A DNA stretch of 64,000 nt, taken from Novosphingobium sediminicola (GTDB taxonomy: Bacteria; Pseudomonadota; Alphaproteobacteria; Sphingomonadales; Sphingomonadaceae). Below, piece after piece: positions 9,386 to 15,682 of the stretch. Under the pieces are notes generated by a model, which made no database searches, was not told the DNA's origin, and was given only the letters and a program-made list of their open reading frames with translations. The position numbers and the translations under genes are program-made. Where the stretch lies: contig NZ_JACIDX010000009.1 of assembly GCF_014196525.1 (NCBI RefSeq), positions 186,001 through 250,000 on the forward strand, read 5' to 3'. Every line of letters starts with the position of its first letter. The stretch's first letter is position 1.

Positions 9386-9451
9386 ATGCATACGAGATCC
9401 GCCGATACGGCCGATGGCGCCGCCCTTTCCCATTCTGAAAGGGCCGGATGA
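9386..9451 (+). CDS. Possible 21-residue upstream ORF coupled to the isomerase gene
   Basis: ATG at 9386 with a good GAAGGAG site 8 bases upstream opens a 21-codon frame (MHTRSADTADGAALSHSERAG). Its TGA overlaps the start of the next gene in an ATGA arrangement. The peptide has no recognised motif. It may be a leader that couples translation, or chance. The next gene lacks a strong ribosome site of its own, which supports coupling. Confidence 0.35.
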   Translation: MHTRSADTADGAALSHSERAG

Positions 9452-10371
9452 CAATGCGGACAGACCATTTCCCCGTCAGTCGACGCATGTTGGGCCGGAT
9501 GGCCATCGGCGCCTCCATGGCCTCTCTCACGCCTTTTTCCGCAATGGCCGCCTCCGCGCCGCCTGCCCCGCGATTTTCGGTGATGGCATGGGCGTTGGGC
9601 CACGACATTCCCTTTGAGCGCCAGTTGAGCATCATCAGCCAAGCCGGTTATCAGGGAATCGAGCTGACTGGCGAATTTCGCAACTGGACGAAAGCTGAAA
9701 CGCGCGAAGCCGCCTCGCGGATCAGAGGCCATGGGTTGGTCGTCGACGCCATGGCGGGGGTGCGAACGGGCTTTGCAAAAATAGAGGCGACCGCGCAGTT
9801 CCTCACCGAACTGTCGCAGGTGATCGAAAGCGCGGTCACGCTGGGATGCGGCCGCGTCATTCTGGTGTCGGGCCCGGTCGCACCGGACATGGCCCCGGCC
9901 GAGCAACAGTCCCGCGTGGCCGAGGCTTTGCAAAAGGCGGCCGAACTTGCCGCTGCCGCCTCAATCGAGCTGGTGATCGAACCCATCGACCGGTTTGAAA
10001 ATCCGACATGCTTCCTGACCGGCGCGCGTCAGGCAAAGTCAATTTTGCAGCAGGTGAACAAGCCGAACGTCAAGATCCTGTTCGATATATTTCACGAGCA
10101 GCGAGCCTATGGCAATGTTCTGGAAACGCTCGAACTGCTCATCAAGGATATCAGCCTCATCCATATCGCCGATTCGCCCCAGCGCGGCGCGCCCGGCACC
10201 GGCGAGCTTAATTTCCAGCGCGTTTACAGTGAATTGGGCCGCCTAGGCTATCATGACTGGATTGCCATGGAATTTTACCCCGAAGGCGATCCGGTCCCGC
10301 CGCTCCTCACGGCCCGCCATCAGGCGATTGAAGCGATGTCGCGCCAGCGCGCATTAGAGGCCCCCGCCTAG
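9448..10371 (+). CDS. Tat-exported sugar isomerase, hydroxypyruvate isomerase-like
   Basis: A 307-residue xylose-isomerase-type TIM barrel (AP_endonuc_2). It begins with a twin-arginine signal (SRRMLGRMAIGA, cut near AMAAS), so it is probably periplasmic, which is unusual for a metabolic isomerase. The mature start FSVMAWALGH-PFE and GIELTGEF resemble hydroxypyruvate isomerases. Metal ligands are visible: Glu in LVIEPID, Asp in LFDIFHE, His in LIHIADS, and Glu in AMEFYPEG. A role in handling hydroxypyruvate or an oxidised sugar is plausible, but export argues for an extracellular sugar derivative. Confidence 0.83.
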   Translation: MTMRTDHFPVSRRMLGRMAIGASMASLTPFSAMAASAPPAPRFSVMAWALGHDIPFERQLSIISQAGYQGIELTGEFRNWTKAETREAASRIRGHGLVVDAMAGVRTGFAKIEATAQFLTELSQVIESAVTLGCGRVILVSGPVAPDMAPAEQQSRVAEALQKAAELAAAASIELVIEPIDRFENPTCFLTGARQAKSILQQVNKPNVKILFDIFHEQRAYGNVLETLELLIKDISLIHIADSPQRGAPGTGELNFQRVYSELGRLGYHDWIAMEFYPEGDPVPPLLTARHQAIEAMSRQRALEAPA

Positions 10372-10531
10372 ACCCCTCGCCTCTGATCCTCAGGCATCAG
10401 GTTGGTAAATTGTATCCATCTTCTTTGATCGGAATGGGTTAAGCCACGTCTGGACGGATGATCGCTATCAAGTCGCGTTCCGGCTGGGCCGGCACGAACT
10501 TCGTTCCCGCGATGATTAAAGAGAGCCAGAC

Positions 10532-11275
10532 ATGAACAGCCTGCCCAGAATTAACGCGGTCTATTGGATCACTCTTATCGCGGCGAGTGTGTTTGGCACC
10601 AACACCGGGGACTATGTTTCCGATGAACTGGGGATCGGACATCTGTCCGGCCTGCCGTGGCTTGCGCTGCTGCTTGGCGCGATCCTGATTGCCGAACGGG
10701 TCTTGCGGCCCGCCTTGCCGCTGCTGTTCTGGCTGGCGATCATTACGGTGCGCACCGCCGCCACCAATATTGGCGATGCTTTCCATGATTTTCATCTGGG
10801 CTTTGCCGTATCGCTGCCGGTTGTGTCGCTGGCTTTCGTGCTGGCCGTGGCCGCCTATCGCTGGTTGGGCGGGGGCGTTGCCGACAATGGAGCGGCCAAA
10901 GTGGATTGGGCCTATTGGCTGTGCATGATGATGGCCGGTGCATGGGGGACGATCATGGGGGATTTCACCTCCTTCGGCCTGACCAGCCCACCGCTCTTCC
11001 CCGCCATGGCCACGGTCTGGCTGAGCGGGCTGCTGGCGCTGGTGTTTATCGGCGGCGGTCGGGGCCGATTGGTCGGAGGCTGGTATTACTGGCTGGCGGT
11101 GGGCATGGTGCGCGCGGCAGGTACGGCGGCCGGTGACGCACTCGCGCATGCTCTGGAAGGCCCGGACCATAGTCTGCTGCCCGCTCTGGGCATCAGCGGG
11201 GGCGTTTTCCTGCTCCTCGTTCTGGGGTTCTATGGGCGCAGGGCCGCGGGGAACATCGTCCAGCCCCCGCGCTAA
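10532..11275 (+). CDS. Four-repeat membrane protein, COG4705 type
   Basis: A 247-residue integral membrane protein, uncharacterised family COG4705. It is built from four units of about 55-62 residues. Each carries an aromatic-Trp pair followed by T and then GD at fixed distance (W-x10-T-x2-G-D). The Asp residues are D27, D82, D144 and D202 and the Trp residues W12, W67, W129 and W187. Four buried Asp residues in helices suggest ion or proton translocation, but this is inference. It stands alone between two isomerase genes and ends at a strong hairpin shared with the convergent cluster. The ATG has no strong ribosome site; GAGAG lies upstream. Confidence 0.8.
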   Translation: MNSLPRINAVYWITLIAASVFGTNTGDYVSDELGIGHLSGLPWLALLLGAILIAERVLRPALPLLFWLAIITVRTAATNIGDAFHDFHLGFAVSLPVVSLAFVLAVAAYRWLGGGVADNGAAKVDWAYWLCMMMAGAWGTIMGDFTSFGLTSPPLFPAMATVWLSGLLALVFIGGGRGRLVGGWYYWLAVGMVRAAGTAAGDALAHALEGPDHSLLPALGISGGVFLLLVLGFYGRRAAGNIVQPPR

Positions 11276-11291
11276 AGTTCCGCAGATTGGT

Positions 11292-11338
11292 TCACTGCCT
11301 GCACCCGCCCCCGTTTCGGCCAAATGTGCAGGCAGTGA
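11292..11338. terminator. Long hairpin between convergent genes
   Basis: Perfect 13-base arms TCACTGCCTGCAC and GTGCAGGCAGTGA with a 21-base loop. It lies midway between the stop of the COG4705-type gene (11275) and the stop of the leftward isomerase (11367). Bidirectional terminator-like, without long T tracts. Confidence 0.55.
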
Positions 11339-11366
11339 TCCCATATCCGGTCGAAATGGCCGACGC

Positions 11367-12302
11367 TCAATCGTAGATCGGGCGCAATTCCTTATCCAGA
11401 TAATAGCGCGTCATCGCCATAGAGGCCAAAAGGTCGGGCGAGCCGTCATATTCGATCGACATCCAGCCCTTGAACTCGTGCTGTTTGAGCAGGCGATAGA
11501 GGCCCTTGAGGTCCAGATTACCCATGCCCGGTTCCCAGAACCAGCGCATGCCATCATCGGTGATCTCGGGGTCCTGGGAGAAACGCAGGCTGTCGGGTTG
11601 ATTGGACGAGGCCGTGTCCTTGAGGTGGAATGTGCTGATGCGTTCGTGATAGTCGTCATAGAACTTCAGCAGATCCTCACCCATGATCGAGATCTGGGCC
11701 GTGTCGATGCAGTAATGCACGAATCTGGGATCGGTTGTTTCGATCAACTCGCGATGGTTCGACAGGTTGATCGCACAGAAAAATTCGTTGTGCAGACCGA
11801 TCTTGACCCCGTGATCGGTGGCATAGCGGCCGATCTCATTCATAACTTTGGCGCATTGCTGCACCTCTTCGCGGCTCAGCGGCCCGGTCCCGTAATAGTT
11901 CTGGGTCGGGCAGGTGTTCATATAGGTGCCGCCGAAGCGCACGATCGTATCGACCGCCTCGCGCCCGGAACGCACAGCCTCGTCGAAATGATCCGCCGCA
12001 TGGGAGGCATGCGCACCGTGGAACATGCCGATCACGCTCACCCCGCGCTCTTTCGCAAAAGCCGTGAAATTCTCGGGCGAGCCGAACAGGGGCAGGATGT
12101 CGGCCATATCCCAAGGCGCGATCTCGATCCCGTCGAAACCAAGCGCAGATTGATATTTCAGAATATTATCCCAATCGGAATAATAGGCGCTGTTGGTGTT
12201 ATCTTCATAATAGAACTCACGGAAATTATCGATCTTCTTGTAGGGGATCGATTTCCAGTGGCTCATGTTGGCATAACGAATGTTGGGCCCAATATTGGTC
12301 AT
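11367..12302 (-). CDS. Sugar phosphate isomerase/epimerase family TIM barrel
   Basis: A 311-residue cytosolic xylose-isomerase-like barrel. Likely divalent metal ligands are Glu in GLHNEFF, Asp in YCIDTAQ, His in FHLKDT and Glu in MSIEYDGSP. The substrate is not deducible; the family includes sugar isomerases, 3-epimerases, inosose and keto-sugar dehydratases. It is the last gene of a leftward cluster (15508 to 11367) with two similar but distinct barrels and a GPH sugar symporter. The set therefore probably imports and rearranges one unusual sugar. It ends at the shared hairpin. Confidence 0.85.
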   Translation of the reverse strand: MTNIGPNIRYANMSHWKSIPYKKIDNFREFYYEDNTNSAYYSDWDNILKYQSALGFDGIEIAPWDMADILPLFGSPENFTAFAKERGVSVIGMFHGAHASHAADHFDEAVRSGREAVDTIVRFGGTYMNTCPTQNYYGTGPLSREEVQQCAKVMNEIGRYATDHGVKIGLHNEFFCAINLSNHRELIETTDPRFVHYCIDTAQISIMGEDLLKFYDDYHERISTFHLKDTASSNQPDSLRFSQDPEITDDGMRWFWEPGMGNLDLKGLYRLLKQHEFKGWMSIEYDGSPDLLASMAMTRYYLDKELRPIYD

Positions 12303-12321
12303 AGCGGATTCTCCGTCCGTC

Positions 12322-13278
12322 TTATTTCTGAAACTGGTTGAGCAAGGAGCGGGTCCGCAGCAGCGCGCGAAACGGATCGCGCGTCTGGCGGGCGCTGCAT
12401 GTGATCGGTCCCTGATAATTCAGCCGGTCCAGCAAGCCCGCGATCTCCAGGAGATCGACCGACCCGGTGCCCGGATCGCGGAAGACCTGCGTTGCGCGGT
12501 GGGACGGGAATTCGGGATTGGGCGTTTTCCAGACATCCGCCGTATCAACAAAGTCAGTGTCGGTAAGATGCACACAGCCGATCCGCCCATCATGCGCCGC
12601 AAGGAAATCCGCCGCCGAGATGCCCGCAACGAACAGGTTAGCCGTGTCGAGGTCCAGCTTCACCGTTTCGGGCAGCGCATCGAGCAAAGACACAACCTGC
12701 TCTCCGCCAAACAGGCCCCAGTATTCGTGGCGCAGAACCAGCGTGACGCCCAGTTCCGCCGCCTTGGCGGCCAATCCGCCCAGCAATTCGATGGTGCGCT
12801 GGGTAAAGGCCTCCTTCTGGCCTTCGAGATCGGGATGATATTGCAAAATGCGGCCATAGAAGGGCGATGGGCTGATCGCGAAATAGTTAGCGCCCATATC
12901 TGCGGCATGGGCCAGAGCCTCTTGGGCAAAATGGCCCGTTGCGCCGAAATAGAAGCCGAGATTGTCGTTGCGCATGAACAGGTTGGGATCAAAGGTGATG
13001 CCCGTGACGCGCTCGATCCCGCATTCCTTCAGCAACGCGCGATAATTGGCCGCGTTTTCATATTTGGTGTTCACGCAATAGCGGTTCATCGGCACGCCGC
13101 TGCGTCCGCCGAATTGCCACACCGGCTCATAGGGGATCTCGATGGCCGAAAAGCCCGATGCGGCAATCAGCCTGTAAAGCTCCTCCCAGAAATACTTGCT
13201 TTCATAGCGGTTCCGGTTGGGTTCCTGATAGTGTCGATTGATCAGATCGAGGCTTATTGCGATCGCTTCTGTGTGCAT
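12322..13278 (-). CDS. Sugar phosphate isomerase/epimerase family TIM barrel
   Basis: A 318-residue barrel with a long N-terminal loop (NRNRYESKYFWEELYRLI) and visible ligand positions: Glu in LVLRHEYWG, Asp in KLDLDTANLF and His in CVHLTDTD. The final segment has ITCSARQT, so the fourth Glu of the family is replaced. That may mean altered metal binding or a structural role. The ATG at 13278 is chosen because the upstream extension to 13362 is rich in unlikely residues. It lies 19 bases before the next isomerase and downstream of the symporter, so it is part of the same operon. Confidence 0.8.
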   Translation of the reverse strand: MHTEAIAISLDLINRHYQEPNRNRYESKYFWEELYRLIAASGFSAIEIPYEPVWQFGGRSGVPMNRYCVNTKYENAANYRALLKECGIERVTGITFDPNLFMRNDNLGFYFGATGHFAQEALAHAADMGANYFAISPSPFYGRILQYHPDLEGQKEAFTQRTIELLGGLAAKAAELGVTLVLRHEYWGLFGGEQVVSLLDALPETVKLDLDTANLFVAGISAADFLAAHDGRIGCVHLTDTDFVDTADVWKTPNPEFPSHRATQVFRDPGTGSVDLLEIAGLLDRLNYQGPITCSARQTRDPFRALLRTRSLLNQFQK

Positions 13279-13392
13279 GAGTGAGTTCCGTTTCCGCGTA
13301 AGACCGCGTTTCGTTGCATAGGTTGGATCAGAAGGGGGTTGGATCAGAAGGGCGCCGTCCATCCTGTTTCGGAATATGTCAGCGCGCGGCTA

Positions 13393-14703
13393 TCATGCCG
13401 ACTTGGCGCGCCCGGTGACCGGCCAAAGCAGCATGATCAGCGTTTGGGCGACCAGCAGAACCACCGCGCCGCCGCTATAGGTCCAGCGGATCGCCTCGCG
13501 CGCGCCGTCGCTGACATGGCCGGGCACATAGCCAAAGGCGCCCAGCACATAGGCAAAGCCCGCCGTGCCCAGCGCCATGCCCAGCTTGGTCGACAGGCTG
13601 ATACCGGCCGAGAGCAAGCCTTCGCGGCGGGTGCCGAACTGGGCTTCGTGATAATCCACCGTCTCGGCAATCATCGCAAAGGCCGCCGTGATGGTAATCG
13701 ATGTGGCAAGGCAACCGGCGATATAAAGGCCAAGGAAGAGCCCCACATGATCCTGCACAAAAGGCAGGGCGGCAAACAGCACGGCGGCAATGGCCAACGC
13801 CCCCACCGTGCCGTTGCGAATGCCGGTGCGCGCCAGAATGGCGGGCGCGACAAAGGCCGAGAGCAGCAGCATCCCGGCTACCGCCGGCAGCATCACCGAG
13901 ATCATCCATGGCTTGCCCAGCACATCGATGGCGAAATAGGCCGTGGCCGCCATCATCATGCCAAAGCGGGCGAAATAGAGCAGGCAGGAGCCGAAAACCA
14001 CCAGCCAGGCCCGATTTTGCAGCATCTCCTTCACCGCAGGCAGGATCGCAAAGCGGGGCGAGGCATGGTCCTCATGCCTTTCGCGGCAATTGCGGAACAG
14101 CGCCATCGTGCAGGCAAAGCCGACGGCGGCAAACAGCGCCGCCACCAGCGTAAATCCGCGCTGTTGATCCGCCCCGCCCAGCGCGCTCACCAAAGGCATC
14201 ACCGTCGCCGTGCCCAGCACGACGCTGATCGAGGTGCCGATCGAGCGCATTCCCGACAGTTTGAGCCGTTCGCCGCCGTCCTGCGTCATCATCGGCATCA
14301 GCGCGGTGTAGGGGATGGCCTGAAAAGACATGAGAATGCCCAATGCCTTGAAGGTCAGGAAGGCATAGACAAGCTGGGCCCCCTGTCCCCATGCGGGCAC
14401 ATGGAACACCGCGACCGACACAAGGGCATAGGGCATGGCGACAAATAGGAAATAGACACGCGTCCGGCCCCACCGGCTGCGCGTTTTGTCCACCGCAATG
14501 CCCACCAGAAAGTCGATCACCGCATCAAGCAGCCGCGCCACCAGAAACACCGTGCCCACCGATGCCGCAGGCAGGCCCACCACGTTGGTATAGTAAAACA
14601 GCAGAAACCCGCTGGCCATATTATAGGCCAGACTGGTTCCCATATCGCCAAAGCCATAGCTAAGCCTTTCGGCAAAGCTCAGTTTTGCGTCTTGCATGGC
14701 CAC
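13393..14703 (-). CDS. GPH-family sugar:cation symporter (MFS)
   Basis: A 436-residue, twelve-helix carrier of the glycoside-pentoside-hexuronide:cation symporter family (MelB/XynP/YihO type). Typical features are the N-terminal SYGFGDMGTSLAYNM, the loop VDKTRSRWGRTRVYFLF between helices 2 and 3, and NPLD-type residues replaced by RLLDAVIDFLVG. It brings a glycoside, uronide or pentose across the inner membrane with Na+ or H+. Two nearby in-frame ATGs (14703, 14697) are possible starts. It sits in the middle of three isomerase genes and supplies their likely substrate. Confidence 0.88.
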   Translation of the reverse strand: MAMQDAKLSFAERLSYGFGDMGTSLAYNMASGFLLFYYTNVVGLPAASVGTVFLVARLLDAVIDFLVGIAVDKTRSRWGRTRVYFLFVAMPYALVSVAVFHVPAWGQGAQLVYAFLTFKALGILMSFQAIPYTALMPMMTQDGGERLKLSGMRSIGTSISVVLGTATVMPLVSALGGADQQRGFTLVAALFAAVGFACTMALFRNCRERHEDHASPRFAILPAVKEMLQNRAWLVVFGSCLLYFARFGMMMAATAYFAIDVLGKPWMISVMLPAVAGMLLLSAFVAPAILARTGIRNGTVGALAIAAVLFAALPFVQDHVGLFLGLYIAGCLATSITITAAFAMIAETVDYHEAQFGTRREGLLSAGISLSTKLGMALGTAGFAYVLGAFGYVPGHVSDGAREAIRWTYSGGAVVLLVAQTLIMLLWPVTGRAKSA

Positions 14704-14737
14704 ATCCTCTTCCGAGCGGCGGCAGATAGCGGGTTTG

Positions 14738-15508
14738 TCAGCCCAGCTTTTGCCGGGTCAGCGCGATTGATTGGTCCATGGGCAGGGTGGGGAAATATTC
14801 CAGCCCAATCGCGCCCGCATAGCCGAGATCGGTCAAGACCTGCATGACCTTGTCCCAGTCGAGCGTGCCTGTGCCCGGCTCATGGCGGTCGGCCATATCG
14901 GCCACCTGTACATGGGCCACCAGATGGATGCGGCCTGCCAGCACCTGCGCCATATCCTCGCCCATCACCGCGCTGTGCCAGACATCGTAAAGCAGCCGCA
15001 GGTTCGGGCTGTTCACCGCCTCGACCAGATCGAGGCCCAGCTTGGTGCTGACCAAATACATCGCGGCGAAAAGCTGTGTGTTGAGCGGTTCGAGCAGCAG
15101 CGTAACCCCCGCTTCCTCTGCCACATCGGTCGCCGCGCGCAAGGCGGCGACGGCATTGGCGAAATGCTCTTCCTCGCTCACCCCCTCGACGCGAAAACCC
15201 GAGGCCACGATCAGGTCAGGCTTGCCCAGCTTGGCGGTGGCCACGATGGTTTCGCGCACCGCCGTTACCAATTCCTCGCGCTCGGCCGGATCGACGATCG
15301 AGCGGCGCGGATCAACGCAAACCCCGGTCAGCCGCATGCCGGTCTCGTTCAACGCCTGCGCCAGAGCGTCCACCGGCTTGTCGCGCCACAGGTGAAATTC
15401 GGCCAGTTCAAAGCCCGCCGCCTTGGCTGCACGCAAACGCGCGTCCAACGCGCCGGCTTCGGTAAATTGCCATTCAATACAGGATGAAAGTGGATAGCTC
15501 GCAGACAT
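14738..15508 (-). CDS. Sugar isomerase/epimerase, hydroxypyruvate isomerase-like
   Basis: A 256-residue barrel, compact like Hyi or tagatose/psicose 3-epimerases. Ligand Glu in LLLEPLN, Asp in LLYDVWHS, a His in HVQVADM (with GTGTLDW nearby) and Glu in GLEYFP are visible. The ATG at 15508 has AAAGGA upstream; a longer frame to 15673 lacks coding character. It is the first gene of the leftward sugar cluster (this gene, symporter, two further barrels). The LysR regulator at 15683-16552, in the same orientation upstream, is the obvious candidate controller. Confidence 0.85.
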   Translation of the reverse strand: MSASYPLSSCIEWQFTEAGALDARLRAAKAAGFELAEFHLWRDKPVDALAQALNETGMRLTGVCVDPRRSIVDPAEREELVTAVRETIVATAKLGKPDLIVASGFRVEGVSEEEHFANAVAALRAATDVAEEAGVTLLLEPLNTQLFAAMYLVSTKLGLDLVEAVNSPNLRLLYDVWHSAVMGEDMAQVLAGRIHLVAHVQVADMADRHEPGTGTLDWDKVMQVLTDLGYAGAIGLEYFPTLPMDQSIALTRQKLG

Positions 15509-15682
15509 AGGATCCTTTTCCCATTCTACGGCCCCGTGGCGCTGCTCGCGCTCGTATGCCTGGCAGGGTTTATCCCTGCTATTTTGTGTGTCGCCTTCAT
15601 CGCCGCATTTGCCCGACAGGTCAATATGGTTTGATGCAGCATAATGCTTTGCGCGATCAGCCGCTTGCCCCACAAAGGCAGA

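Follow-up and report, generated by a model that had tools for sequence, protein, structure and literature searches.

An exact fourfold W-x10-T-x2-G-D repeat in a rare subfamily of DUF347 (PF03988) membrane proteins, and a possible ring of aspartates

DUF347 proteins and channels built from repeats in one chain

Proteins of the Pfam entry PF03988 (DUF347) are built as a tandem of four repeats, and each repeat contributes two membrane helices and a conserved tryptophan. The channels of the TrkH/KtrB type, whose likeness to DUF347 (repeats in one chain around an axis) would be one of analogy only, are single-chain pseudo-tetramers in which four two-helix repeats surround a common axis, and in which a re-entrant pore loop with the selectivity filter lies between both helices of each repeat.

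In the parts of the published record that were available, DUF347 proteins have been connected to metals and to stress: mmfC1 and mmfC2 of transposon Tn6048 of Cupriavidus metallidurans are DUF347 proteins, Tn6048 being induced by Zn and Pb and carrying two such genes; a DUF347 protein of Frankia is a candidate for lead tolerance; and DUF347 is a presumed stress-associated metal transporter (PMC9756366). The domain is enriched in cold-adapted dinoflagellates (PMC6249206) and occurs also in algae (PMC6249206, PMC9756366), while the available sections of two further papers mention Tn6048 and nothing more (PMC13192273, PMC6210171). In the open-licence literature we found neither a structural or mutational study of DUF347 nor a flux, binding assay or phenotype for any single DUF347 protein; what was found there on metals concerns expression, genomic surroundings and traits of whole plasmids. 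A sequence-only reading of the protein described below had called its family one with no known function, which holds in so far as no transport test was found in the literature, but two papers, in their available parts, speak of a putative metal transporter. The label COG4705 given to it in that reading did not occur in the open-licence literature.

The motif, the family and its subfamilies

The protein is encoded in the window, i.e. the whole stretch of 64,000 nucleotides that was analysed, where the following features were located:

10532..11275, + strand: DUF347 (PF03988) membrane protein of 247 aa (ORF, Pfam, and AlphaFold2 model with eight predicted TM helices in four A-B repeats)
10556..10702, + strand: repeat 1, helices A1 (residues 9-32) and B1 (40-57) (model DSSP; Pfam repeat match at residues 10-54)
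10565..10612, + strand: motif 1, W12/T23/G26/D27 (sequence)
10718..10864, + strand: repeat 2, helices A2 (63-86) and B2 (91-111) (model DSSP; Pfam repeat match)
10730..10777, + strand: motif 2, W67/T78/G81/D82 (sequence)
10751..10753, + strand: R74, on the motif face of helix A2, marker of the R74 subfamily (R in 13/252 members)
10895..11068, + strand: repeat 3, helices A3 (122-149) and B3 (156-179) (model DSSP)
10916..10963, + strand: motif 3, W129/T140/G143/D144 (sequence)
11081..11233, + strand: repeat 4, helices A4 (184-207) and B4 (216-234) (model DSSP; Pfam repeat match)
11090..11137, + strand: motif 4, W187/T198/G201/D202 (sequence)
11111..11113, + strand: R194, on the motif face of helix A4 (R in 251/252 members)

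The window protein is assigned to PF03988, of which it is a divergent member (E 1.5e-21, 76.8 bits against a gathering cut-off of 28.2, four matched stretches) and fits the DUF347 repeat plan, with four repeats, eight predicted helices and a Trp in all four; the NCBIfam models gave zero matches up to E 1. A family search of the source genome matched only this locus, and the closest relatives found were a 98% identical protein of Novosphingobium sp. SG751A (L004) and, at 55% identity, a protein of Rhizobium sp. BK376. We regard an antisense ORF in the mechanical list (10439-11344, - strand) as an artefact of high GC content.

The W-x10-T-x2-G-D motif is indeed present four times with identical spacing, at residues 12-27, 67-82, 129-144 and 187-202 (Asp 27, 82, 144 and 202), and all four copies fall within predicted membrane helices (9-32, 63-86, 122-149 and 184-207), as had been proposed from the sequence. 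A random protein of the same composition is expected to hold 0.002 such motifs, and in 20,000 shuffles of the 247-aa protein one copy appeared in 47 and two or more in 0. The fourfold motif is thus not due to chance: it is the signature of a known, uncharacterised repeat family, found here in a rare subfamily.

The family sample was drawn from whole genomes, public plasmids and viral contigs and contained 257 unique ORFs of at least 200 aa, of which five fragment or frameshifted ORFs were removed; the 252 remaining members are nearly all from Pseudomonadota, include related sequences and were completed by two last searches aimed at the NDDN variant described below. They were retrieved mainly by Pfam and profile searches of whole genomes, because single-sequence scans gave few or none: the window protein recovered two loci in genome contigs, zero relatives in viral contigs and, by tblastn at 1e-5, zero in plasmids. 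Matches on plasmids place PF03988 in several bacterial phyla.

At a median pairwise identity of 0.45 (5% to 95%: 0.24 to 0.70), the tryptophans are practically fixed (W12, W67 and W129 each in 252/252, W187 in 251/252, all four together in 251/252), and so is R194. The proposed invariance of the four Asp is largely borne out, with D27 in 232, D82 in 252, D144 in 251 (E once) and D202 in 232 of the 252 members; D27 and D202 are Asn in the remaining 20, so that the four-Asp patterns are DDDD (231), NDDN (20) and DDED (1). The threonines behave differently from what had been claimed, since strict retention is family-wide for T78 (251/252) and T140 (252/252) only: position 23 in repeat 1 is Glu in 237/252 and Thr in 9/252, position 198 in repeat 4 is Ala in 237/252 and Thr in 14/252, and all four Thr occur together in 9/252. 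Fourfold facing of Asp and Thr would therefore be a trait of a small subfamily. As the complete W/T/G/D motif is present in all four repeats of just 3/252 members (the window protein, L004 and the Rhizobium protein L005), the Trp/Asp frame belongs to the whole family and the exact fourfold motif to the window lineage.

Membership of the main subfamily was considered for the window protein and rejected: K15, E23 and A198 are each present in 237/252 members, but the window protein has L15, T23 and T198. The two groups have in common the four two-helix repeats, the four Trp, the four Asp, R194, T78 and T140; the window subfamily lacks K15 and E23 and has R74 and T198. Position 74, in repeat 2, is Arg in 13/252 and among the others Thr (157) or Ser (79). 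The 13 R74 members, window protein included, have R74, G136 and T198 in common and form one clade in a tree of 210 members (support 0.969, or 0.999 with L060 added); all 237 E23 members carry K15, and the R74 members carry neither. Within this subfamily the exact fourfold W/T/G/D is kept only by the three proteins named above. Its repeat 1 is most like repeat 3, and its repeat 2 is nearer to 4 than to 1 or 3; the core therefore looks more two-fold. Among 149 Novosphingobium genomes, strong R74-type matches (E <1e-50) occur in four (G000, G1455, G030, G1522).

The Asn variants of D27 and D202 were always paired (20/20 NDDN members, neither Asn being found alone), and D82 and D144 stay Asp in them. 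General searches had yielded 3 NDDN members among 210, and 17 more came from the two aimed searches. In the tree 19 of them form one clade and L310 is placed elsewhere. Two origins, as parsimony has it, were not upheld, given that an AU test on 46 rows did not reject a single clade (p 0.567, the one-clade tree scoring higher), and because this test allows one clade we keep the two-origin change only as a hint. The co-change fits a site in which the residues work as two pairs and repeat 1 adjoins repeat 4, but it may be a single event. NDDN paralogues (L224, L147, L310 and others among L365-L385) are kept in many genomes of one genus, and several NDDN-bearing genomes hold further DUF347 copies nearby.

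Predicted architecture and the closing junction

AlphaFold2, run on 14 sequences, predicted eight helices, two per repeat, both for the window protein (pLDDT 80.8, pTM 0.82) and for a main-family relative from a viral contig (pLDDT 87.6, pTM 0.85), whereas DUF347 is described with six helices in the available part of PMC4531530. The predicted A-B links of 4-8 residues in the window model and 3-11 in the second model would leave no room for a pore loop of the TrkH/KtrB kind. A sequence search of the PDB gave no relative (three matches at E 1.8, to RNA polymerase omega, were taken as chance), Foldseek against the PDB at E 0.001 gave no match for either model, and the viral structure library held no fold match for the window model. 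The best VIA-align scores of the two models (Z 6.7 and 6.4) are in a range that means little for helical bundles. The absence of a clear fold match does not demonstrate a new fold.

Several properties of the sequences agree with a core of A helices. On ideal-helix projections, W, R, T, G and D of each A helix lie within 100 degrees of one face; across 210 members the A helices are more conserved than the B helices (mean 2.9-3.3 against 2.1-2.3 bits) and the B helices more hydrophobic. Arg and Lys are more frequent at the two termini and in the B-to-A loops (1.14-2.70 per stretch) than in the A-to-B loops (0.10-1.06), which should place the beginning of each A helix, and with it the Trp, on the cytoplasmic side and the Asp nearer the periplasm.

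Coevolution was analysed by mean-field coupling. The junctions B1-A2, B2-A3 and B3-A4 have coupled offsets in common, and the closing junction B4-A1, read in a five-residue register, is equally high at the same offsets and above all 504 null registers; this register corresponds to the five residues by which repeat 4 is longer (50 residues over 45 profile positions) and had already been used for the helix ranges before the ring test. In 24 overlapping re-runs on eight subsets, B4-A1 was above the null maximum in 21 and below it in 2, both from subsets lacking the R74 type; the remaining run was a tie at printed precision. Ranked against all 77 B4-A1 registers, the chosen one came first in 8 re-runs, second in 13, and third or fourth in the other 3. 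Two earlier forms of the test, the whole-map A-A correlation and a smoothed B-A correlation (shifts 0, 3, 4, 5, 6), did not separate the closing junction. The A helices are coupled to one another through their conserved face (component 0.274, permutation P 0.003), and the B contacts fall on the opposite one (component -0.407); near-invariant positions have few couplings and may sway this normalised face score, and invariant residues give no coevolution signal.

The ring reading has a calculated basis in the repeats, the conservation, the loop charge bias and the coevolution. Judged from these sequence-derived signals, the four repeats probably form a closed ring with the motifs inside. The fourfold pseudo-symmetric site that had been suggested for the window protein is thereby partly retained: coevolution suggests a closed ring in which the W/T/G/D faces of the A helices would be turned inward toward each other, but not a fourfold facing of Asp and Thr. 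The idea of a fourfold site gains indirect support, and the ion pore is carried along as a hypothesis.

We propose, as the most likely arrangement, a closed pseudo-fourfold ring made by the four two-helix repeats of a single chain, in which four parallel A helices would make up the core and four less conserved, more hydrophobic B helices the outside, each B helix being packed against helix A of the following repeat. W, (R), T, G and D would sit on the inner face of each A helix, with the Trp at the cytoplasmic and the Asp at the periplasmic end, so that the four Asp would line the outer mouth; the same face would hold one Arg (R194), or two in the R74 subfamily (R74, R194). The Asp ring may bind and pass cations, most likely divalent metal ions. 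In conditions of metal or envelope stress the protein may act as a channel or exporter of low capacity. Since K15 and E23 are lost and R74 is gained, selectivity or coupling probably differs in the window subfamily. The architecture is the better supported half of this proposal; the substrate is read from context and could be wrong.

Gene neighbourhoods and candidate substrates

The genes around DUF347 were compared between 76 family loci (80 less four that were shorter than 9,000 bases) and 40 control stretches from other places in genomes that had contributed case loci. Within 3 kb, a response regulator and a kinase gene are present in 28/76 loci against 0/40 controls (p 8e-7), a rough comparison since the loci are partly related and some genomes gave several, and since the search seeds were pairs found beside DUF347, one of them (L129) being itself a case. 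This association, together with the R74-type locus L129, which belongs to the subfamily of the window protein and reads response regulator, kinase and DUF347 in one direction, would suit a membrane accessory of a two-component sensor that senses a ligand or presents it to the adjoining kinase without transport. We give this explanation little credence: the pair is absent within 3 kb in 48/76 loci and among the 15 scanned neighbours of the window gene, and the core residues are identical with or without a kinase neighbour, which suggests that DUF347 has a job of its own.

Ten regulator proteins encoded at six loci were compared with models: all four response regulators scored best with PmrA, and the six kinases with PhoQ (2), QseC (2) or heavy-metal CztS-type (2) models, all below cut-off. 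DUF347 could be an envelope-lipid carrier in a stress response like that of PmrAB or QseBC; its substrate, to be moved or held, would be a lipid or a lipid-linked phosphate, for example one related to undecaprenyl or lipid A, R194 and R74 would bind the phosphate, and metals would act as inducer only. In line with this, the mmf operon combines its two DUF347 genes with genes for a BcrC-like PAP2 phosphatase, a PepSY protein and a two-component pair, PAP2 and VTT/DedA genes adjoin DUF347 in L005, and in Acidithiobacillus a DedA gene follows it. The mmf-bearing plasmid pHB44 has moreover been tied to bacitracin resistance and to Fe and V import, both as traits of the whole plasmid; in the available part of the same source, however, the bacitracin effect is absent with the mmf-bearing plasmid pBS64, and the authors ascribe the trait to mmfB, a plasmid with only mmfA and mmfB having also conferred it (PMC4914505). 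The partner genes were, furthermore, not significantly enriched near DUF347 (PAP2 5/76 loci against 1/40 controls, DedA 3/76 against 0/40), and a ring of four Asp would be an odd site for phosphate, so that a lipid carrier appears unlikely to us. PAP2/UppP, DedA and RND were all dismissed as general partners for want of enrichment against the controls.

The neighbours of the window gene are of another kind: a CLC channel, TIM-barrel isomerase-like genes, a GPH symporter, TonB receptors, a LysR regulator and a sulfatase. None of the 15 that were scanned is a two-component, metal, PAP2 or PepSY gene, and an operon of the mmf type for metal or envelope stress was rejected for this locus on the absence of the two-component pair, PAP2 and PepSY. 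Within 6.3 kb (9448-15673), four AP_endonuc_2 (xylose-isomerase-like) TIM-barrel genes surround the GPH-type symporter: one lies upstream of DUF347, and the other three are found downstream, on the opposite strand. This stretch is likely a sugar-use locus.

Such surroundings, with their sugar-isomerase-like TIM barrels, GPH-type symporter, TonB receptors and sulfatase, would suit a proton-coupled carrier of an organic or anionic solute that serves the sugar-use genes, its core Asp/Arg pairs coupling H+. The A helices do have mixed D/R/K/E charges, and mmfC is labelled a putative MFS permease in the available parts of PMC12029693 and PMC4914505. That label lacks Pfam support, as no MFS profile matched and DUF347 was the sole Pfam match up to E 1. 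An MFS protein is likewise a helical membrane protein (partial alignments only, best Z 6.7 over 131 residues, rmsd 3.9, in the uninformative range), but it has 12 helices against 8, and the window protein has a fourfold repeat. With no clear fold match to any carrier either, and with sugar genes absent from the few scanned flanking proteins of the R74 loci L005, L059, L305, L306, L315 and L067, we regard a solute carrier as improbable.

In three loci an RND efflux operon ends with DUF347, whose start overlaps the stop of the RND gene before it: L059 (3582-7366), L305 (7402-11171) and L400 (2837-6735). The first two are from related Novosphingobium genomes and both of the R74 type; their RND proteins score higher against multidrug than against heavy-metal models, all below cut-off, and the role of the first gene as outer-membrane factor is assumed from its position because it has no NCBIfam match. 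The third is on a Fibrella plasmid, where heavy-metal P-type ATPase and CusA/CzcA genes are found as well. Over all loci RND genes were not enriched (4/76 against 2/40 controls).

Taken as a whole, we tentatively favour the ring of Asp as a pathway for cations, metals in particular, as the best explanation, though it could easily be otherwise. It is favoured by the near-invariance of the four Trp, the four Asp and R194, by the metal context in print and by the RND-operon loci. Against it count the lack of RND enrichment, the first forms of the ring test, which did not discriminate, and the equal growth in Cd, Co and Zn of Cupriavidus gilardii with and without the mmf cluster, as given in the available part of PMC12029693. 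Metal induction could instead reflect envelope stress, and the sugar-use look of the window neighbourhood does not speak for the metal reading. A more far-reaching version, which we hold to be doubtful, would make DUF347 a new class of ion pathway: a single-chain pseudo-tetramer free of pore loops, with the Asp ring as two pairs (D27/D202 and D82/D144), which would serve metal export or leak in mobile stress cassettes and of which the R74 subfamily, with two Arg, would have a more two-fold core and changed selectivity. PF03988 sits on conjugative plasmids and on a transposon induced by Zn and Pb. The likely closed ring, the four fixed Asp, the NDDN paralogues and the R74 subfamily offer a small, testable set of point variants for ion or metal handling.

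The plasmid records yielded some further observations. On three plasmids of Citrobacter and Enterobacter (L401, L405, L406) DUF347 is followed by response regulator and kinase genes: in two of them it directly precedes the pair downstream of mcr-9.1, and in the third the unit lies by tellurite genes, with a PepSY gene further on. At least 80% of this three-gene unit was present in 13/14 matching plasmid records. In PMC7229202 qseB/qseC are discussed as proposed inducers of mcr-9, and the word DUF347 is absent from the available part of that text; the regulator and kinase pair downstream of mcr-9.1 may instead be part of a DUF347 cassette. On an Enterobacter roggenkampii plasmid (L402, 3526-6765) DUF347 is the next annotated gene downstream of mcr-10.1, and on a Priestia plasmid (L403, 4989-6503) the DUF347 match lies inside an annotated gene of 504 aa, about twice the usual length.
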